Assembly: GCF_900100665.1 (NCBI RefSeq)
Contig: NZ_FNCS01000002.1
Location: forward strand, 186,001-250,000
DNA length: 64,000 nucleotides
Origin: Pelagibacterium luteolum
GTDB taxonomy: Bacteria; Pseudomonadota; Alphaproteobacteria; Rhizobiales; Devosiaceae
Direction: 5' to 3'
A program made the translations under genes and the position numbers. Each line of letters opens with the position of its first letter. Within the stretch, counting starts at the first letter, position 1. Of the stretch, positions 59,315 through 64,000 are shown piece by piece. The notes under the pieces were generated by a model. That model made no database searches, had not been told where the DNA came from, and saw nothing but the letters and a program-made list of their open reading frames with translations.

Positions 59315-60106
59315 ATGCGCGGCCAGCTCGCTCTGTTCCTTTCCTCCCGCCGTTGGGAGCAGTTCATCATCGCGGTGATCGTCATCAACGCGATCACGCT
59401 CGGGCTGGAAACCTCGCCCGAAATCATGGCGGCCATCGGCCCGGCGCTCATCGCCCTCGACAGCGTCATCCTTGCGATCTTCGTCGTCGAGATCGCGCTG
59501 CGCCTTTATGCGAACGGGCTGAAATTTTTCCGCGATCCGTGGTCGATCTTCGATTTCGCCATCGTCGCCATCGCGCTCATTCCCTCTTCCGGCCCGTTCA
59601 CCGTGCTGCGCGCGCTGCGCATCCTGCGCGTGCTGCGGCTGATTTCGGTCGTGCCCTCGCTGCGCAAGGTCATCGGCGGGCTGATCTCCGCCCTGCCCGG
59701 CCTCGGCTCGATTTTCGTCCTGCTGCTGCTGGTGTTTTACGTCTTTGCGGTCATGTCGACCAAGCTCTACGGCCCGACATTCCCCGAATGGTTCGGCTCG
59801 ATCGGCGCCTCGCTCTATACGCTGTTCCAGGTGATGACACTGGAAAGCTGGTCCATGGGCATCGTCCGGCCCGTCATGGACGTCCATCCGGAAGCCTGGA
59901 TGTTCTTTATTCCCTTCATCGCCTGCACGGCCTTCACGGTGCTCAACCTGTTTATCGGTGTCATCGTTTCGGCCATGCAGGAAGAGCATGATTCAAACGC
60001 GGAAGCCGATCGCGCCGCCATCCACTCGGAAACCGGCCTCGTCCTCGCCGAGGTCAAGGCCCTTCGCGCCGAAGTGGCCGAACTGCGCAAGGAGCGGCTA
60101 GGCTGA
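59315..60106 (+). CDS. Bacterial voltage-gated sodium-type ion channel
   Basis: 263 residues with six membrane segments. The S4 voltage sensor shows regularly spaced arginines (TVLRALRILRVLRLISVVPSLRKVI), and the pore loop carries the selectivity filter TLESWSM like NaChBac/NavAb. S5-S6 follow (FVLLLLVFYVFAVMSTKLYGP; FIACTAFTVLNLFIGVIVSAM), then a coiled-coil tail (LAEVKALRAEVAELRKERL). It probably conducts Na+ upon depolarisation. The ATG at 59315 has GGAG upstream. Confidence 0.92.
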   Translation: MRGQLALFLSSRRWEQFIIAVIVINAITLGLETSPEIMAAIGPALIALDSVILAIFVVEIALRLYANGLKFFRDPWSIFDFAIVAIALIPSSGPFTVLRALRILRVLRLISVVPSLRKVIGGLISALPGLGSIFVLLLLVFYVFAVMSTKLYGPTFPEWFGSIGASLYTLFQVMTLESWSMGIVRPVMDVHPEAWMFFIPFIACTAFTVLNLFIGVIVSAMQEEHDSNAEADRAAIHSETGLVLAEVKALRAEVAELRKERLG

Positions 60107-61321
60107 AACGATCAGCCCATTGCGCTCAAGGTCGGCAAACAACGCCTCGGCGTCCGTCATCACGACGATCCGCGGCGTGTCCGCAAAGGCGTCCGCCAGC
60201 AGCGCCCCCGCTTCGCGCGCCGAGATCGGCTCCTCGAGCAGTGCCCACACAGCCCCCGCGAGCGCGTTGAGGTTGAGCACCGTCGTATCGTCCCTATCGA
60301 ACAGGAACACCTCGTCACCCACCCGCTTGGCCACGATGCCGGGTGCGCGCATAAAAGTCGCCTCGGGCGCAATGGCCCGACCGCGGGCACGCCCCGACCG
60401 GGGCGCAATCTCCAGCGGCGTACCGGGCTCGGGCTGCCCCTCCACCAGCCCTGCCGCATCGACCGGCCAGGCTGCAAATTTGTCCATCAGCAATGCCGCC
60501 GCATCATCGAGGCTGCTGTAAAACAGCCTTATGCACGGCACGCTTTCGAGCAGCCCTTCCAGGCGCCCGGTCAGCGCGCTGGCCGGGCCGGTGCGCACCA
60601 TGTTGCGCAGCAGCAGATGCCGCAGCGCCTCGGCCCGATCGGCGGGGGCAAATCCTGCCGGCCCATCGGCGCGCCGGTCCAGTAGCAGCACGACGCCAAT
60701 CGGCGCCGTGCGCCCATGCGGCGCGATATTGGACGTGTCGAGGTAGCAATACCGCCCGTCATCGGCCGCTGCGTGGTCGCGCACATGGCCCGCCAGCGTT
60801 TCGCCCGACCCCTCCGGCAGCGGCAGGCGCGGACGCGGCGGCACGCCAAGCGCCAGCCCGAAATTGTCCGGCGCTGTAATGGGCAGCATGTCGTCGGCAT
60901 AAACCAGCACCGGTTCGGCCGCCATCCGCGCGGCCAGCGTGCTTTTCCCCATGCGCGCGGTCCCGGTGGCAATCACCAGCCGACCGGCAATTTCAAAACT
61001 CATGGCGTGCAGGCAAAGGTGATCCGGATGCGCGGCAAGAAACGACTGCGCTGCATCCACGATCGCGCCGCACGCCGCCCCTACCGAAGACAGCCCGTGC
61101 AAAGGTTCATCGAGAAAGGGCGAGGTCACCGAATAATAGCCCTGGTCTCCCACGACCGAAATCGGCGCCGCATCGGGTTCGGTGGAAACCTGCGGCCATC
61201 CGGCCAGCACCGTCCTTACGTGCTCGGCCACCCGCCCCGCATCAACGCACACAACCGGATGCGTCGTACCGGCAAACTGCATCTTGTCGATTGCGGGCGC
61301 CTTGCGCTTTGCGATGTCCAT
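60098..61321 (-). CDS. HprK-like kinase fused to a PqqD-type peptide-binding domain
   Basis: 407 residues. Residues 95-300 look HprK-like: FEIAGRLVIATGTARMGKSTLAARMA has a P-loop (GTARMGKS, about residues 120-127), followed by VLVYADDMLPIT and LLLDRRADGP. The last roughly 82 residues match PqqD (APGIVAKRVGDEVFLFDRDDTTVLNLNALAGAVWALLEEPISAREAGALL), the domain that binds leader peptides in RiPP systems. Separate HprK-like kinases are known to phosphorylate peptides; this is a fusion. A hairpin separates it from the Ser/Arg-repeat gene upstream. The ATG at 61321 is preferred over 61375, which would place that hairpin inside the coding sequence. Confidence 0.8.
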   Translation of the reverse strand: MDIAKRKAPAIDKMQFAGTTHPVVCVDAGRVAEHVRTVLAGWPQVSTEPDAAPISVVGDQGYYSVTSPFLDEPLHGLSSVGAACGAIVDAAQSFLAAHPDHLCLHAMSFEIAGRLVIATGTARMGKSTLAARMAAEPVLVYADDMLPITAPDNFGLALGVPPRPRLPLPEGSGETLAGHVRDHAAADDGRYCYLDTSNIAPHGRTAPIGVVLLLDRRADGPAGFAPADRAEALRHLLLRNMVRTGPASALTGRLEGLLESVPCIRLFYSSLDDAAALLMDKFAAWPVDAAGLVEGQPEPGTPLEIAPRSGRARGRAIAPEATFMRAPGIVAKRVGDEVFLFDRDDTTVLNLNALAGAVWALLEEPISAREAGALLADAFADTPRIVVMTDAEALFADLERNGLIVSA

Positions 61322-61342
61322 GTGTCTCGTCCCCAAAAGTGC

Positions 61343-61369
61343 GAAGGCGCGACGGGTGGCCGCGCCTTC
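61343..61369 (-). terminator. Intercistronic hairpin between repeat protein and kinase genes
   Basis: A perfect 9-bp stem GAAGGCGCG / CGCGCCTTC with a 9-nt loop; on the minus strand it is followed by GCACTTTTGGGG. It may be an attenuator that makes more of the small protein than of the kinase. Confidence 0.6.
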
Positions 61370-61378
61370 GATCATCGA

Positions 61379-61735
61379 TTATGCCCCCTGGCTGCGCAAC
61401 CACGCCAGCCACTGGTCCATCGTCCATCCCGGGGGTGGGCCGGCCCGACGGGCACCGGGGCGGCTCGGACCGCTTCCACGGCGCGTCCCCGACGTAACCC
61501 GGCTCGGCGCACTGGCGCGGCTCGGTGCGCTGGCCCGGCTCGGGGCACTCGCCCGGCTCGGTGCACTGGCACGGCTCGCAGCGCTGGGGGCACTGCCACC
61601 CGAGGCATGCGCCTGGCTGAGCGATAGCATCACCGGCGCCATATAGGCGACGCCTGCAGCAAGGCCCAACTTGGCCAGCAGCTTCCGCCGCGACTGGGAG
61701 GGAGCATCCTTATCGTGTTCGGGCAGATCGTTCAT
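61379..61735 (-). CDS. Small Ser/Arg-repeat protein with twin-arginine leader
   Basis: 118 residues. A Tat-like leader (SRRKLLAKLGLAAGVAYMAP, then VMLSLSQAHASG) is followed by SGGSAPSAASRASAPSRASA-type repeats (five 18-bp DNA units, SRASAP), a basic Pro/Arg-rich region and a tryptophan-rich end (PPPGWTMDQWLAWLRSQGA). The leader resembles that of the S8 peptidase gene at 63.6 kb at about 18 of 30 positions. It is followed by the HprK-PqqD kinase and carries the same promoter motif as the peptidase. It is a candidate substrate of the kinase or peptidase. Confidence 0.75.
   Translation of the reverse strand: MNDLPEHDKDAPSQSRRKLLAKLGLAAGVAYMAPVMLSLSQAHASGGSAPSAASRASAPSRASAPSRASAPSRASAPSRVTSGTRRGSGPSRPGARRAGPPPGWTMDQWLAWLRSQGA
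61500..61589. repeat. Tandem 18-bp coding repeat (five units)
   Basis: Units of 18 bp, each starting CGGCTCGG (the last CGGCTCGC), encode SRASAP or a close variant on the minus strand. The units differ by one to three bases. Coding repeat, in frame. Confidence 0.85.
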
Positions 61736-61785
61736 TGTCTCAGATCCTTCTTCACTGTCGTTGACTGTCGTCGTGGCCACTGAAG

Positions 61786-61815
61786 GCATAACGATGCGAT
61801 CTGCGCTTTATTCCC
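61786..61815 (-). promoter_or_regulatory. Candidate ECF sigma promoter of the Ser/Arg-repeat gene
   Basis: On the minus strand GGGAATAA, 14 nt (AGCGCAGATCGCAT), CGTTAT, about 50 bp before the ATG. The same boxes occur before the subtilase gene and before the sigma factor gene. Confidence 0.6.
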
Positions 61816-61951
61816 GCCGCCTGATTTTTTCTTCCCATCTACGGATCGCCACAGGGCCCCTCGGGTCAAGCCCAGGGTGACGGGTGGCGTAGAAGGCAGT
61901 CGATCGACTTGTTGCCCATTAGTTGATCTCACACGCATCATCCCCACCACT

Positions 61952-62061
61952 GTCATCCCGGGCGAAGACCCGGGATCCAGTATGCTCCGTGGAACCAAGT
62001 TGGCGCCGAAGACACCATCATGCGCCGAGCATACTGGGTCCCGGCTCAAGGCCGGGATGAC
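61952..62061. repeat. Dispersed 110-bp inverted repeat (copy 5)
   Basis: Left arm GTCATCCCGGGCGAAGACCC ... CCAGTATGCTCCG, right arm GAGCATACTGGGTCCCGGCT ... GGCCGGGATGAC. Exactly 110 bp, as copies 3 and 4. Confidence 0.85.
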
Positions 62062-62214
62062 GGTGGGGCAAGGTGAGGGAATAGCCCACACCACGGCCTC
62101 CCCAAGCCAAGCCAGACCGGGGAATGACGGTTGGGGGTAATGTGCGCATGTGAGTCCGAAGCAATTTAGGGACCGGTTGCGTTCAGGGATACGCGGGCCG
62201 CCTCCCCCGCCACC

Positions 62215-62252
62215 GTCATCCTCGGGCTTGACCCGAGGACCCACGCAGCGCC
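62215..62252. repeat. Half copy of the dispersed repeat
   Basis: GTCATCCTCGGGCTTGACCC followed by GAGGACCCACGCAGCGCC; one arm only, just past the subtilase stop. Confidence 0.55.
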
Positions 62253-62266
62253 CGCCGCGACCACCC

Positions 62267-63580
62267 TTACGCTGGCAAAAGGCAGAGCGTACTCGCGTCC
62301 ACGAGCCCCCAGCCATAGACCCCGTCCCACCCCGCATCGCCAAGATCGACGGCGCGATCGGCAAGGAGCGTCACGGTTTCCTCGATCGGCAGGTCCGGAT
62401 TTTCCAGCCGCGCCACGGCCAGTGCCGCGGTCACGAACGGTGCAGCGTAGCTCGTGCCCGAGCGCAATCGGCCGCCAGAGACCGACGCCGCCGTCCACAG
62501 TCCCACCCCCGGTGCGGCAAAGCGGATATGTTCGCCCGTGACCGCCTGCCGATAGACCGTGCCCTGACTGTCGATGGCCGTCACCGCCACCACATGGCCG
62601 TAAGCGGGGGGATAAAGCGGCTCGGCCCTCGGCCCATCATTGCCCGCCGCAGCGACCAGCGCGATGCCCCGCTCATGAAGAAGCAGTGTCGCCTCTTCGA
62701 GCAGCTCATTGCCCGGACCGGCAAAACTCATATTGATGATATCGACCCCGGCATCGGCGAGTTGGTCCAGGGCCTGCAGCAGAGAATAAGCGTCCGCCGC
62801 ATCCCCCGCCGTATCGGCATGAAACGCATCGACCGCCACAAGCCGCGCATTGGGCAAAAGCCCCGGCGTGCGCGTATCGGCCCGCCCGATCAACAGGGCC
62901 GCGACCGCAGTTCCGTGCACCAGCCCCGCCGCCGCCCGCCCGTCGGTATCCGCGCTCAGCATCTCGAGCGATTGCCCGGCCAGCGCCTCGTGGTCGGGAT
63001 TGATCCCTGTGTCGATCATCCCAATCACCGGTGCCGCCGTGCAGGGCTCGGGCTGCGGCCACCCAACCAGCGAAAACGCCGCGCATTCATCGTCGACGCA
63101 CAGCATTTCGCTGGTGCGATAAAGGTCGTTGTGGTGCACGGCGCCGACCGGCAAAAGCGCGATGGCCCGCGCCATGGCCTGATCGTAGCTCAGCCCAGCA
63201 GGCGCCCGGAACCGCCCCACCCATTTACCCAGCAGCCCCAATTGCCTGCGGCTGATCAAGAGGAACCCATCGTCTTCGAGCAGCGCAAATCCCTCATCGG
63301 CATCCAGCGCCACCACCAGTTCGACCGGCCGCGCCGGCGCCGGGCGCGAGGGTTGCGCCTGCGGCTGCGGCGTCGCACGCGATGGCACCGAGGCGCGCGA
63401 TGGGCGTGTCGCGCGCGATGCACGCGATGCGCCGCTTACGGAATCGGACGCGCGTGCCGCGCTCAATTGCAGAACCGTCGGCGCCACATAGACCATTGCC
63501 GCCGTCAGCCCCAGCCGGGCCAGCAGCGCGCGCCGGCGCATCGATTTCGGTTGGCTCGCGCCGTCATTGTCCATCACCAT
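62267..63580 (-). CDS. S8 subtilisin-like peptidase with Ser/Arg-repeat linker
   Basis: 437 residues. A Tat-like leader (MRRRALLARLGLTAAMVYVA...) close to that of the small repeat protein is followed by an Ser/Arg/Pro-rich linker (SRASRATRPSRASVPSRATP). The peptidase domain has the full triad: Asp in VIGMIDTGIN, His in LVHGTAVAALLIG and Ser in SGTSYAAPFVTAAL. The start is at 63580 (MVMDND) or 63574, which has the better-spaced GAGG. An ECF-type motif lies just upstream. It probably acts outside the cytoplasm, perhaps on the repeat protein. Confidence 0.88.
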   Translation of the reverse strand: MVMDNDGASQPKSMRRRALLARLGLTAAMVYVAPTVLQLSAARASDSVSGASRASRATRPSRASVPSRATPQPQAQPSRPAPARPVELVVALDADEGFALLEDDGFLLISRRQLGLLGKWVGRFRAPAGLSYDQAMARAIALLPVGAVHHNDLYRTSEMLCVDDECAAFSLVGWPQPEPCTAAPVIGMIDTGINPDHEALAGQSLEMLSADTDGRAAAGLVHGTAVAALLIGRADTRTPGLLPNARLVAVDAFHADTAGDAADAYSLLQALDQLADAGVDIINMSFAGPGNELLEEATLLLHERGIALVAAAGNDGPRAEPLYPPAYGHVVAVTAIDSQGTVYRQAVTGEHIRFAAPGVGLWTAASVSGGRLRSGTSYAAPFVTAALAVARLENPDLPIEETVTLLADRAVDLGDAGWDGVYGWGLVDASTLCLLPA

Positions 63581-63607
63581 GGTCCTCTCGTTCGCACCTC
63601 TGCGCAC

Positions 63608-63636
63608 AAAACGCCGTCGGCCCCAAGTTTATTCCC
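63608..63636 (-). promoter_or_regulatory. Candidate ECF sigma promoter of the S8 peptidase gene
   Basis: On the minus strand GGGAATAA, 15 nt, CGTTTT; predicted start about 22 nt before the ATG. Same boxes as before the repeat gene. Confidence 0.6.
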
Positions 63637-63677
63637 CTCCACGCAACAGCGTCAGTCCAAAATAATCCGATCCGCGC

Positions 63678-63705
63678 AGAATAATTTCAGAAACGCTGCG
63701 TTATG
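63678..63705 (+). promoter_or_regulatory. Candidate ECF autoregulatory promoter
   Basis: CAGAATAA, 14 nt (TTTCAGAAACGCTG), CGTTAT on the plus strand, about 32 bp before the sigma factor GTG. It suggests self-activation. Confidence 0.5.
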
Positions 63706-63737
63706 GTGACGTAACAGCCTCGGGACGGGTCCAGACC

Positions 63738-64000
63738 GTGAGTGACGAGATACGCCATCGGATGGTTGCACTGCTGCCCCGGTTGCGCGCCTTTGCGCGG
63801 AGCCTGACCCGCAATGCTGCGGATGCCGACGATCTTGTGCAGCAAACCTGCGAGAAAGCTCTGGCCGGGCTGTCCGGGTTCACCCCCGGCACCAAGCTTG
63901 AAAGCTGGCTGTTCAGGATCATGCACAACCAGTGGATCGACGTCACCCGCCGGCGCCGGCCCACCCTCGATATCGAATCCGAAGGGCTGGCGGAAACGCT
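63738..64000 (+). CDS. ECF sigma factor (3' end outside window)
   Basis: Starts GTG; 87 visible residues include sigma region 2: VALLPRLRAFARSLTRNAADADDLVQQTCEKALAG and the region 2.3-2.4 helix FTPGTKLESWLFRIMHNQWIDVTRRRR. The rest, including region 4 and any anti-sigma factor, is cut off by the window end. It is divergent from the S8 peptidase, and it probably drives the three GGGAATAA-type promoters, including its own (inference). Confidence 0.88.
   Translation, partial: MSDEIRHRMVALLPRLRAFARSLTRNAADADDLVQQTCEKALAGLSGFTPGTKLESWLFRIMHNQWIDVTRRRRPTLDIESEGLAET

Follow-up and report, generated by a model that had tools for sequence, protein, structure and literature searches.

What an HprK-like kinase with a built-in peptide-recognition domain acts upon is the question raised by one end of a 64,000-nucleotide stretch of Pelagibacterium luteolum DNA (contig NZ_FNCS01000002.1, positions 186,001 to 250,000). 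This stretch is termed here the window, and its numbering is used throughout unless a locus or genome of the comparison (L and G numbers) is named. An earlier note on the window had described four genes, an extracytoplasmic function (ECF) sigma factor, a small repeat protein, a kinase and a subtilase, and all four are present. The kinase (425 aa; 60098-61375, minus strand) resembles HprK and phosphoenolpyruvate carboxykinase (PEPCK) and carries a fused C-terminal PqqD-type domain, a recognition element of ribosomally synthesised and post-translationally modified peptides (RiPP recognition element, RRE; residues 355-422, 60110-60313, minus strand). Directly upstream, with 3 nt between the two open reading frames (ORFs), lies the gene of a precursor-like protein of 118 aa (61379-61735, minus strand), in which a leader of twin-arginine translocation (Tat) type with the motif YMAPVM precedes SRASAP repeats. 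By comparison across genomes the relation between leader and kinase is well supported, and the kinase is predicted, as the probable reading, to phosphorylate neighbouring Ser-rich proteins.

The relation is seen in the recurrence of the two genes side by side. Kinase matches were obtained in 30/397 genomes in a sample of the order (E 1e-6, profile A1, weak distant kinases included), and 39/385 and 9/398 in samples of the class and the phylum (E 1e-15, profile A2), the samples overlapping; among the homologues, kinase and RRE are found both fused and split. The tree comprised 53 chosen loci; duplicates, PqqD-only loci, part of the weak matches and the G038 kinase, which is broken, had been set aside beforehand. 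It contains a supported clade (95/96) of 29 kinases, in which a leader gene is present in 27/29 loci, invariably on the same strand. Judged by ORF ends, this gene lies directly upstream of the kinase in 26 loci (-56 to +188 nt) and downstream in one (L008), and 26 of the 27 nearest leaders display YxxPx[hydrophobic]. The members with no leader gene in the locus are those of Pelagibacterium montanilacus and L062, the latter placed on a very long branch and thus doubtful. The pairing recurs in other orders and outside the class. Among 70 genomes chosen from those of two earlier searches, the leader is present in 9/11 kinase genomes vs 1/59 others; five of the 59 (G044, G045, G070, G076, G079) match kinase or PqqD weakly and distantly, and the lone leader match, itself weak, is that of G070. 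Leaders of several of the 11 positive genomes had served as training data for the profile, and the informative figures are therefore the 59 others and a held-out test, in which the first leader profile (11 leaders, from the order of the window) finds a leader in 22/33 kinase loci outside the training set. At E 0.001 no leader was matched in G038, whose kinase is broken. Several loci hold more than one leader gene, and G051 encodes two more leader proteins on other contigs. Also in G051, a leader protein at L015 2685-3224 has a Gly/Arg-rich tail with a PepSY-like domain at its end, which scores 24.0 bits, right at the cut-off.

A second kinase group (n = 15) has leaders in 4 loci, and some of the others adjoin HlyD adaptor-like genes, as judged by eye. 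On another branch, kinase and RRE are split and accompanied by no leader gene (L094, L098, L099; L091-L093; L095-L097); several of these loci adjoin HlyD adaptor-like or response regulator-like genes and possibly belong to another exported-peptide system.

The joining of an HprK-like P-loop part to a PqqD domain, as the earlier note had proposed, is borne out by both sequence and fold. The PqqD domain exceeds the PF05402 gathering score (33 bits vs 23.4, E 8e-8). The AlphaFold2 (AF2) model of the kinase is confident and displays two domains (pLDDT 89, pTM 0.84), and a Foldseek search with it revealed PEPCK first (E 4e-7), the lasso RRE TbiB1 with its leader (PDB code 5v1v; C-terminal part, TMt of 0.78) and HprK/P (PDB code 1kkl; E 1.3e-3). 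A sequence-profile comparison pairs the RRE part with TbiB1 (E 2e-9) and 9x8z (E 7e-9). The HprK-type part is weak by single sequence (TIGR04352, E 1.2e-4, far below the cut-off; Pfam Hpr_kinase_C, 11 bits vs 33.3), while a profile of seven relatives aligns with HprK in the PDB at E 1e-4 over 64 residues, which span the His, the P-loop and the Asp-Asp pair. These catalytic residues, H123, G143, K144, D161 and D162, are invariant in 15/15 fused homologues, and S145, completing the P-loop GKS, is found in 14/15.

The leader of the small protein extends over residues 1-44 (61604-61735, minus strand) and contains R16R17, L23G24, Y31xxP34 and A42xA44. The consensus is RRxALARLGLAxxAAYxAPVLLxLxxAxA, in which both Arg, Leu10, Leu13, Gly14 and Pro24 are invariant over 26 aligned leaders and Tyr is kept in at least 90%. 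When searched against its own genome, the small-protein leader matches only itself and the subtilase at E<0.5 (subtilase E 8e-8), which upholds the shared leader of the earlier note; the subtilase leaders of P. luteolum and Arsenicitalea aurantiaca (G014) both contain YVAP and should therefore be recognised as well. What is new here is the location of YxxPx[LVIMF], the motif bound by lasso and linear polyphosphorylated peptide (LPP) RREs, within the hydrophobic region of an export-type leader. Most discrete lasso RREs bind [Y/W]xxPx[L/V/I/A/F/Y] (PMC13381572), and in LppB of the LPP system, whose structure is 9x8z, the leader Tyr forms a bond with D70, and the kink at the Pro is held in place by N33 (PMC13381572). 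The aligned residues of the kinase, D408 and N370, are present in 15/15 and 14/15 fused kinases, respectively, and in 22/24 and 20/24 clade loci with an RRE found. The pocket thus fits YxxP binding, although this is compatibility rather than proof; together with the motif and the 27/29 pairing, it supports the leader recognition by the PqqD domain that had been proposed.

A common promoter also ties these genes together. The motif GAATAA-N14-CGTT precedes the small protein-kinase operon (61790-61813, minus strand) and the sigma/anti-sigma unit (63679-63702, plus strand), and GAATAA-N15-CGTT precedes the subtilase gene (63610-63634, minus strand). The earlier note had described four genes as tied by a shared promoter motif; it does stand before all three transcription units, but as three sites, because the small protein and the kinase, 3 nt apart, share one. 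GAATAA-N(13-16)-CGTT has these 3 matches in the window against a shuffle mean of 0.13, and 0/100 shuffles reach 3. Genome-wide there are 6 sites, 3 of them in this cluster, and the remaining three are at chance level since a backward control pattern gives 5. A. aurantiaca displays the same gene order, and its 3.7 Mb hold 3 sites, each in the corresponding position, against 0 for the control. In G364 the motif precedes the leader-kinase operon, and sigma, anti-sigma and a poly-Asp S8 protease reside on another contig, also with the motif (4 sites genome-wide; control 2). A sigma factor is found in 3/30 kinase neighbourhoods, and it was therefore rejected as a core part.

The subtilase (62267-63580, minus strand) exceeds the PF00082 gathering score (105.6 bits vs 21.8; Peptidase_S8 E 4e-30), and its leader, with YVAPTV, is followed by a Ser/Arg/Ala/Pro linker. 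The sigma/anti-sigma unit is divergent from it and from the small protein-kinase operon, which follows a promoter site of its own. The ECF sigma gene (63738-64000, plus strand; Sigma70_r2 E 6e-16, Sigma70_r4_2 E 9e-14) is present as its 5' part, as it crosses the window end; the whole gene encodes 175 aa (L003 3739-4266) and is followed by the anti-sigma gene. The start of the anti-sigma factor is zinc-finger-like but below the Pfam cut-off (zf-HC2, 16.8 vs 22.2 bits), and one membrane segment was identified by eye. Two promoter sites abut the listed ORF starts, so that the true starts are probably ATG 61735 for the small protein and ATG 63580 or 63574 for the subtilase. The SRASAP units that the earlier note had described are encoded by an 18-bp tandem repeat of 4.5 copies (61498-61578, minus strand), and the subtilase gene contains a second, poorer 18-bp repeat (63370-63432). 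Palindromic GTCATCCCGGG-type elements resembling dispersed repeats were seen by eye between the small protein and the subtilase (61940-62250).

The reading we favour, with reasonable if not high confidence, is a phosphorylation and export system controlled by the ECF sigma factor and guided by the RRE. The gene pairing, the motif, the catalytic residues, the YxxP-compatible pocket and the common promoter are what the sequences provide; binding, phosphorylation, phosphosites, step order and export route are predicted from them. The ECF sigma factor would drive the three units through the GAATAA promoter. The RRE half would bind YxxPx[LVIMF] within the Tat-like signal that both the small protein and the subtilase carry, and the HprK-like half would then phosphorylate one or more serines in the Ser-rich part following the leader. 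While bound, the RRE would also shield the hydrophobic signal up to the end of modification; export of the product, probably through Tat, and cleavage of the signal behind AxA would follow. A precedent for the chemistry is LppK, also HprK-like, on which Ser phosphorylation of the LPP precursor depends in a heterologous host (PMC13381572).

Several observations weigh against this proposal. The likeness of the leader to a twin-arginine signal is apparent by look and weak by model, as Tat models match 13/26 leader segments at E<=1 and the window leader scores 16.2 vs a cut-off of 16.7 (TIGR01409). Asp408 is also kept outside the clade (14/15 with a residue there) and does not discriminate, while Asn370 tracks the clade and not the leader, being replaced by Asp/Glu in 4 leader-paired RREs outside the clade and by Asp in 4 inside it. 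The pocket residues were thus rejected on recount as a sign of leader pairing, and confidence in the explanation was lowered slightly. In an AF2 prediction of the small protein and kinase as one chain, the leader was partly helical (pLDDT 32-45) with no sign of docking on the RRE; this is weak counter-evidence, because the alignment was shallow and the program is one for monomers. A phmmer search of the leader against the PDB gave no match. The draft genome of P. montanilacus has an intact kinase, and no leader protein was found in it. Kinase homologues lacking the repeat protein or the sigma factor, which the earlier note had named as adverse to its proposal, therefore do exist and count in part against it. 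In the L085-L088 family (G517, G714, G791, G625) the kinase adjoins the leader gene, but the RRE match is 27-30 kb away or on another contig. Finally, 5/35 tails contain less than 10% Ser.

The tails also bear on where phosphate would be placed. Their Ser content is 5-40% (n = 35; 60 residues counted in the longest) and at least 10% in 30/35, and the repeat types vary widely by lineage (SRPSYSRP, RPSRPSGPS, SRSKSRSR, DASDAS). Short aromatic or basic C-termini were observed in several leader proteins (WLAWLRSQGA, VRNIFR, LRRIFS and MRRIFGG; window 61379-61430, L065, L067, L014), and that of the small protein is modelled by AF2 as a helix of modest confidence, perhaps a second recognition or anchor element. 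Phosphorylation might instead follow the LPP and paeninodin scheme, with several phosphates stacked on a single Ser close to the cleavage site (AHA|SGGS) and the Ser/Arg repeats serving as a mere spacer. LppK does stack multiple phosphates on S3 only (PMC13381572), many leaders have Ser straight after them (SGGS, SSGG, SDSV) and some tails have few Ser, yet serine is abundant in most tails and recurs in unlike repeat contexts, and we regard this alternative as somewhat unlikely. Less likely again is a dedicated Tat-signal chaperone, in which the RRE would bind the signal and the P-loop domain would retain it or let it go at the expense of ATP, with no phosphorylation of protein. The position of YxxP within the hydrophobic region, the great variability of the tails and the NCBIfam naming of PqqD-type proteins as peptide chaperones would suit such a role, whereas the invariance of the catalytic His and both Asp in 15 fused homologues, and the fact that the LPP kinase is a genuine kinase (PMC13381572), argue for catalysis.

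Two further alternatives concern the subtilase. It had been proposed to mature the phosphorylated small protein, and promoter motif and leader are indeed alike in two genomes; the S8/sigma/anti-sigma module, however, is present in relatives without the kinase, an S8 homologue matching beyond the leader part occurs in only 1/30 kinase neighbourhoods (Arsenicitalea), and the subtilase itself bears the leader, all of which make a maturase improbable. As it is leader-bearing, and as the S8/sigma module is also kinase-free, the subtilase looks like a second client. That an ordinary S8/ECF module merely neighbours an unrelated kinase operon is highly improbable: the two modules do occur apart, but promoter and leader are common to them in two genera, and kinase and leader are again paired in other orders and beyond the class. 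A defence reading was dropped, PADLOC revealing only general subtilase/IetS similarity.

The favoured reading, in which the kinase marks leader-bearing exported clients, may extend to the nature of the tails. S8 relatives were found in 14/61 genomes (E 1e-40), and ten S8 loci outside the two kinase genomes were read, those of G013 and G053 being left out of the 12 other genomes. The sigma gene is adjacent in 8, an acidic stretch (D+E >=0.20, residues 31-90) occurs in 8 and the GAATAA motif in 6; the two non-acidic linkers are Gly/Lys or Lys/Arg/Ala rich. Beside the S8 gene, the kinase-less Pelagibacterium genomes G001 (L157 966-1424) and G008 (L198 5755-6174) each encode a small protein that looks exported and terminates in a long poly-Asp/Arg run; the one of G001 stands behind a GAATAA motif. 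In the window and Arsenicitalea, where the kinase lies in the S8 locus, Ser-rich repeats replace the acidic stretches and a YxxP leader replaces the signal. This would fit phosphoserine in the place of aspartate, but it is no more than a lead: the linkers are hypervariable, the exchange is seen in two genomes only, and orientation and signal type are not the same between the small proteins. As a general rule the exchange is weakened by the two non-acidic linkers and by one Asp-Ser leader tail (L066). In G038, with its broken kinase, the S8 protein (L160 733-2274) has a decayed leader-like stretch, with no twin arginine and no Tyr, before poly-Asp. A broader version, a widespread class of Proteobacterial exported phosphoproteins in which the Tat signal is the RRE leader, the RRE-kinase marks the client and gates export, and polyphosphoserine tails replace the poly-Asp of kinase-less relatives, is offered tentatively, as a possibility short of an even chance.

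The closest known system is that of LPP in Bacillota (Popov et al. 2026, PMC13381572), which likewise comprises an HprK-like kinase, an RRE, a YxxP leader and a precursor with a conserved N-terminal part and highly variable C-terminus. LPP loci, stated to be Bacillota-restricted, encode a discrete RRE, a SpI-like leader peptidase, an NTP transferase and an MsbA-like exporter (PMC13381572). In contrast, the system described here displays a fused RRE (split in relatives), a Tat-like leader and an ECF-type promoter, and is Proteobacterial. Ten ORFs selected from the surroundings (55.7-60.1 kb of the window and 5.1-12.5 kb of L003) contained no Pfam family of SpI-like peptidase, NTP transferase or MsbA-like transporter type, and no macrolactam (lasso) cyclase. 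Phosphorylated lasso peptides of the paeninodin type share the HprK-like kinase and a [Y/W]xxP leader, with a discrete RRE (PMC13381572), unlike the long repeat proteins observed here. HPr-rel-A (TIGR04352/TIGR04353) also relates a kinase to PqqD, but scores here are far under the cut-offs (21.3 vs 200 and 14.2 vs 35). Near the HPr-rel-A kind are HprK-like kinases at L074 6274-8820 and L072 5892-8439, with PqqD N-terminal in L072, accompanied by a nucleotidyltransferase (NTP_transf_5 in L074) and a small twin-arginine protein with no clear YxxP. HprK/P (1jb1, 1kkl) is alike in P-loop, His, Asp-Asp and PEPCK-like fold and differs in substrate and in lacking the RRE domain. The Hyphomicrobiales ECF sigma/anti-sigma/S8 module shares sigma, anti-sigma, S8 protease and GAATAA motif, but has no adjoining kinase, an ordinary signal and mostly acidic linkers. 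The system had been considered an unnamed one; none of the open-literature matches listed describes an RRE-HprK kinase paired with Tat-type leaders, although HprK-RRE-precursor sets as such are known from Bacillota (LPP, paeninodin). The terms Proteobacteria, Pseudomonadota and twin-arginine are all absent from the main text of PMC13381572, and the word kinase from that of PMC12710340.

The locus is thus best read as encoding a Proteobacterial phospho-RiPP-like system in which an export signal would double as RRE leader. If this is true, RRE-guided phosphorylation would extend from small Bacillota peptides to Proteobacterial exported repeat proteins and an enzyme. It also suggests a new use of the signal peptide, combining export address and modification tag in one, and the contrast of Asp tails with Ser tails plus kinase in one genus makes the purpose of the phosphate directly testable.

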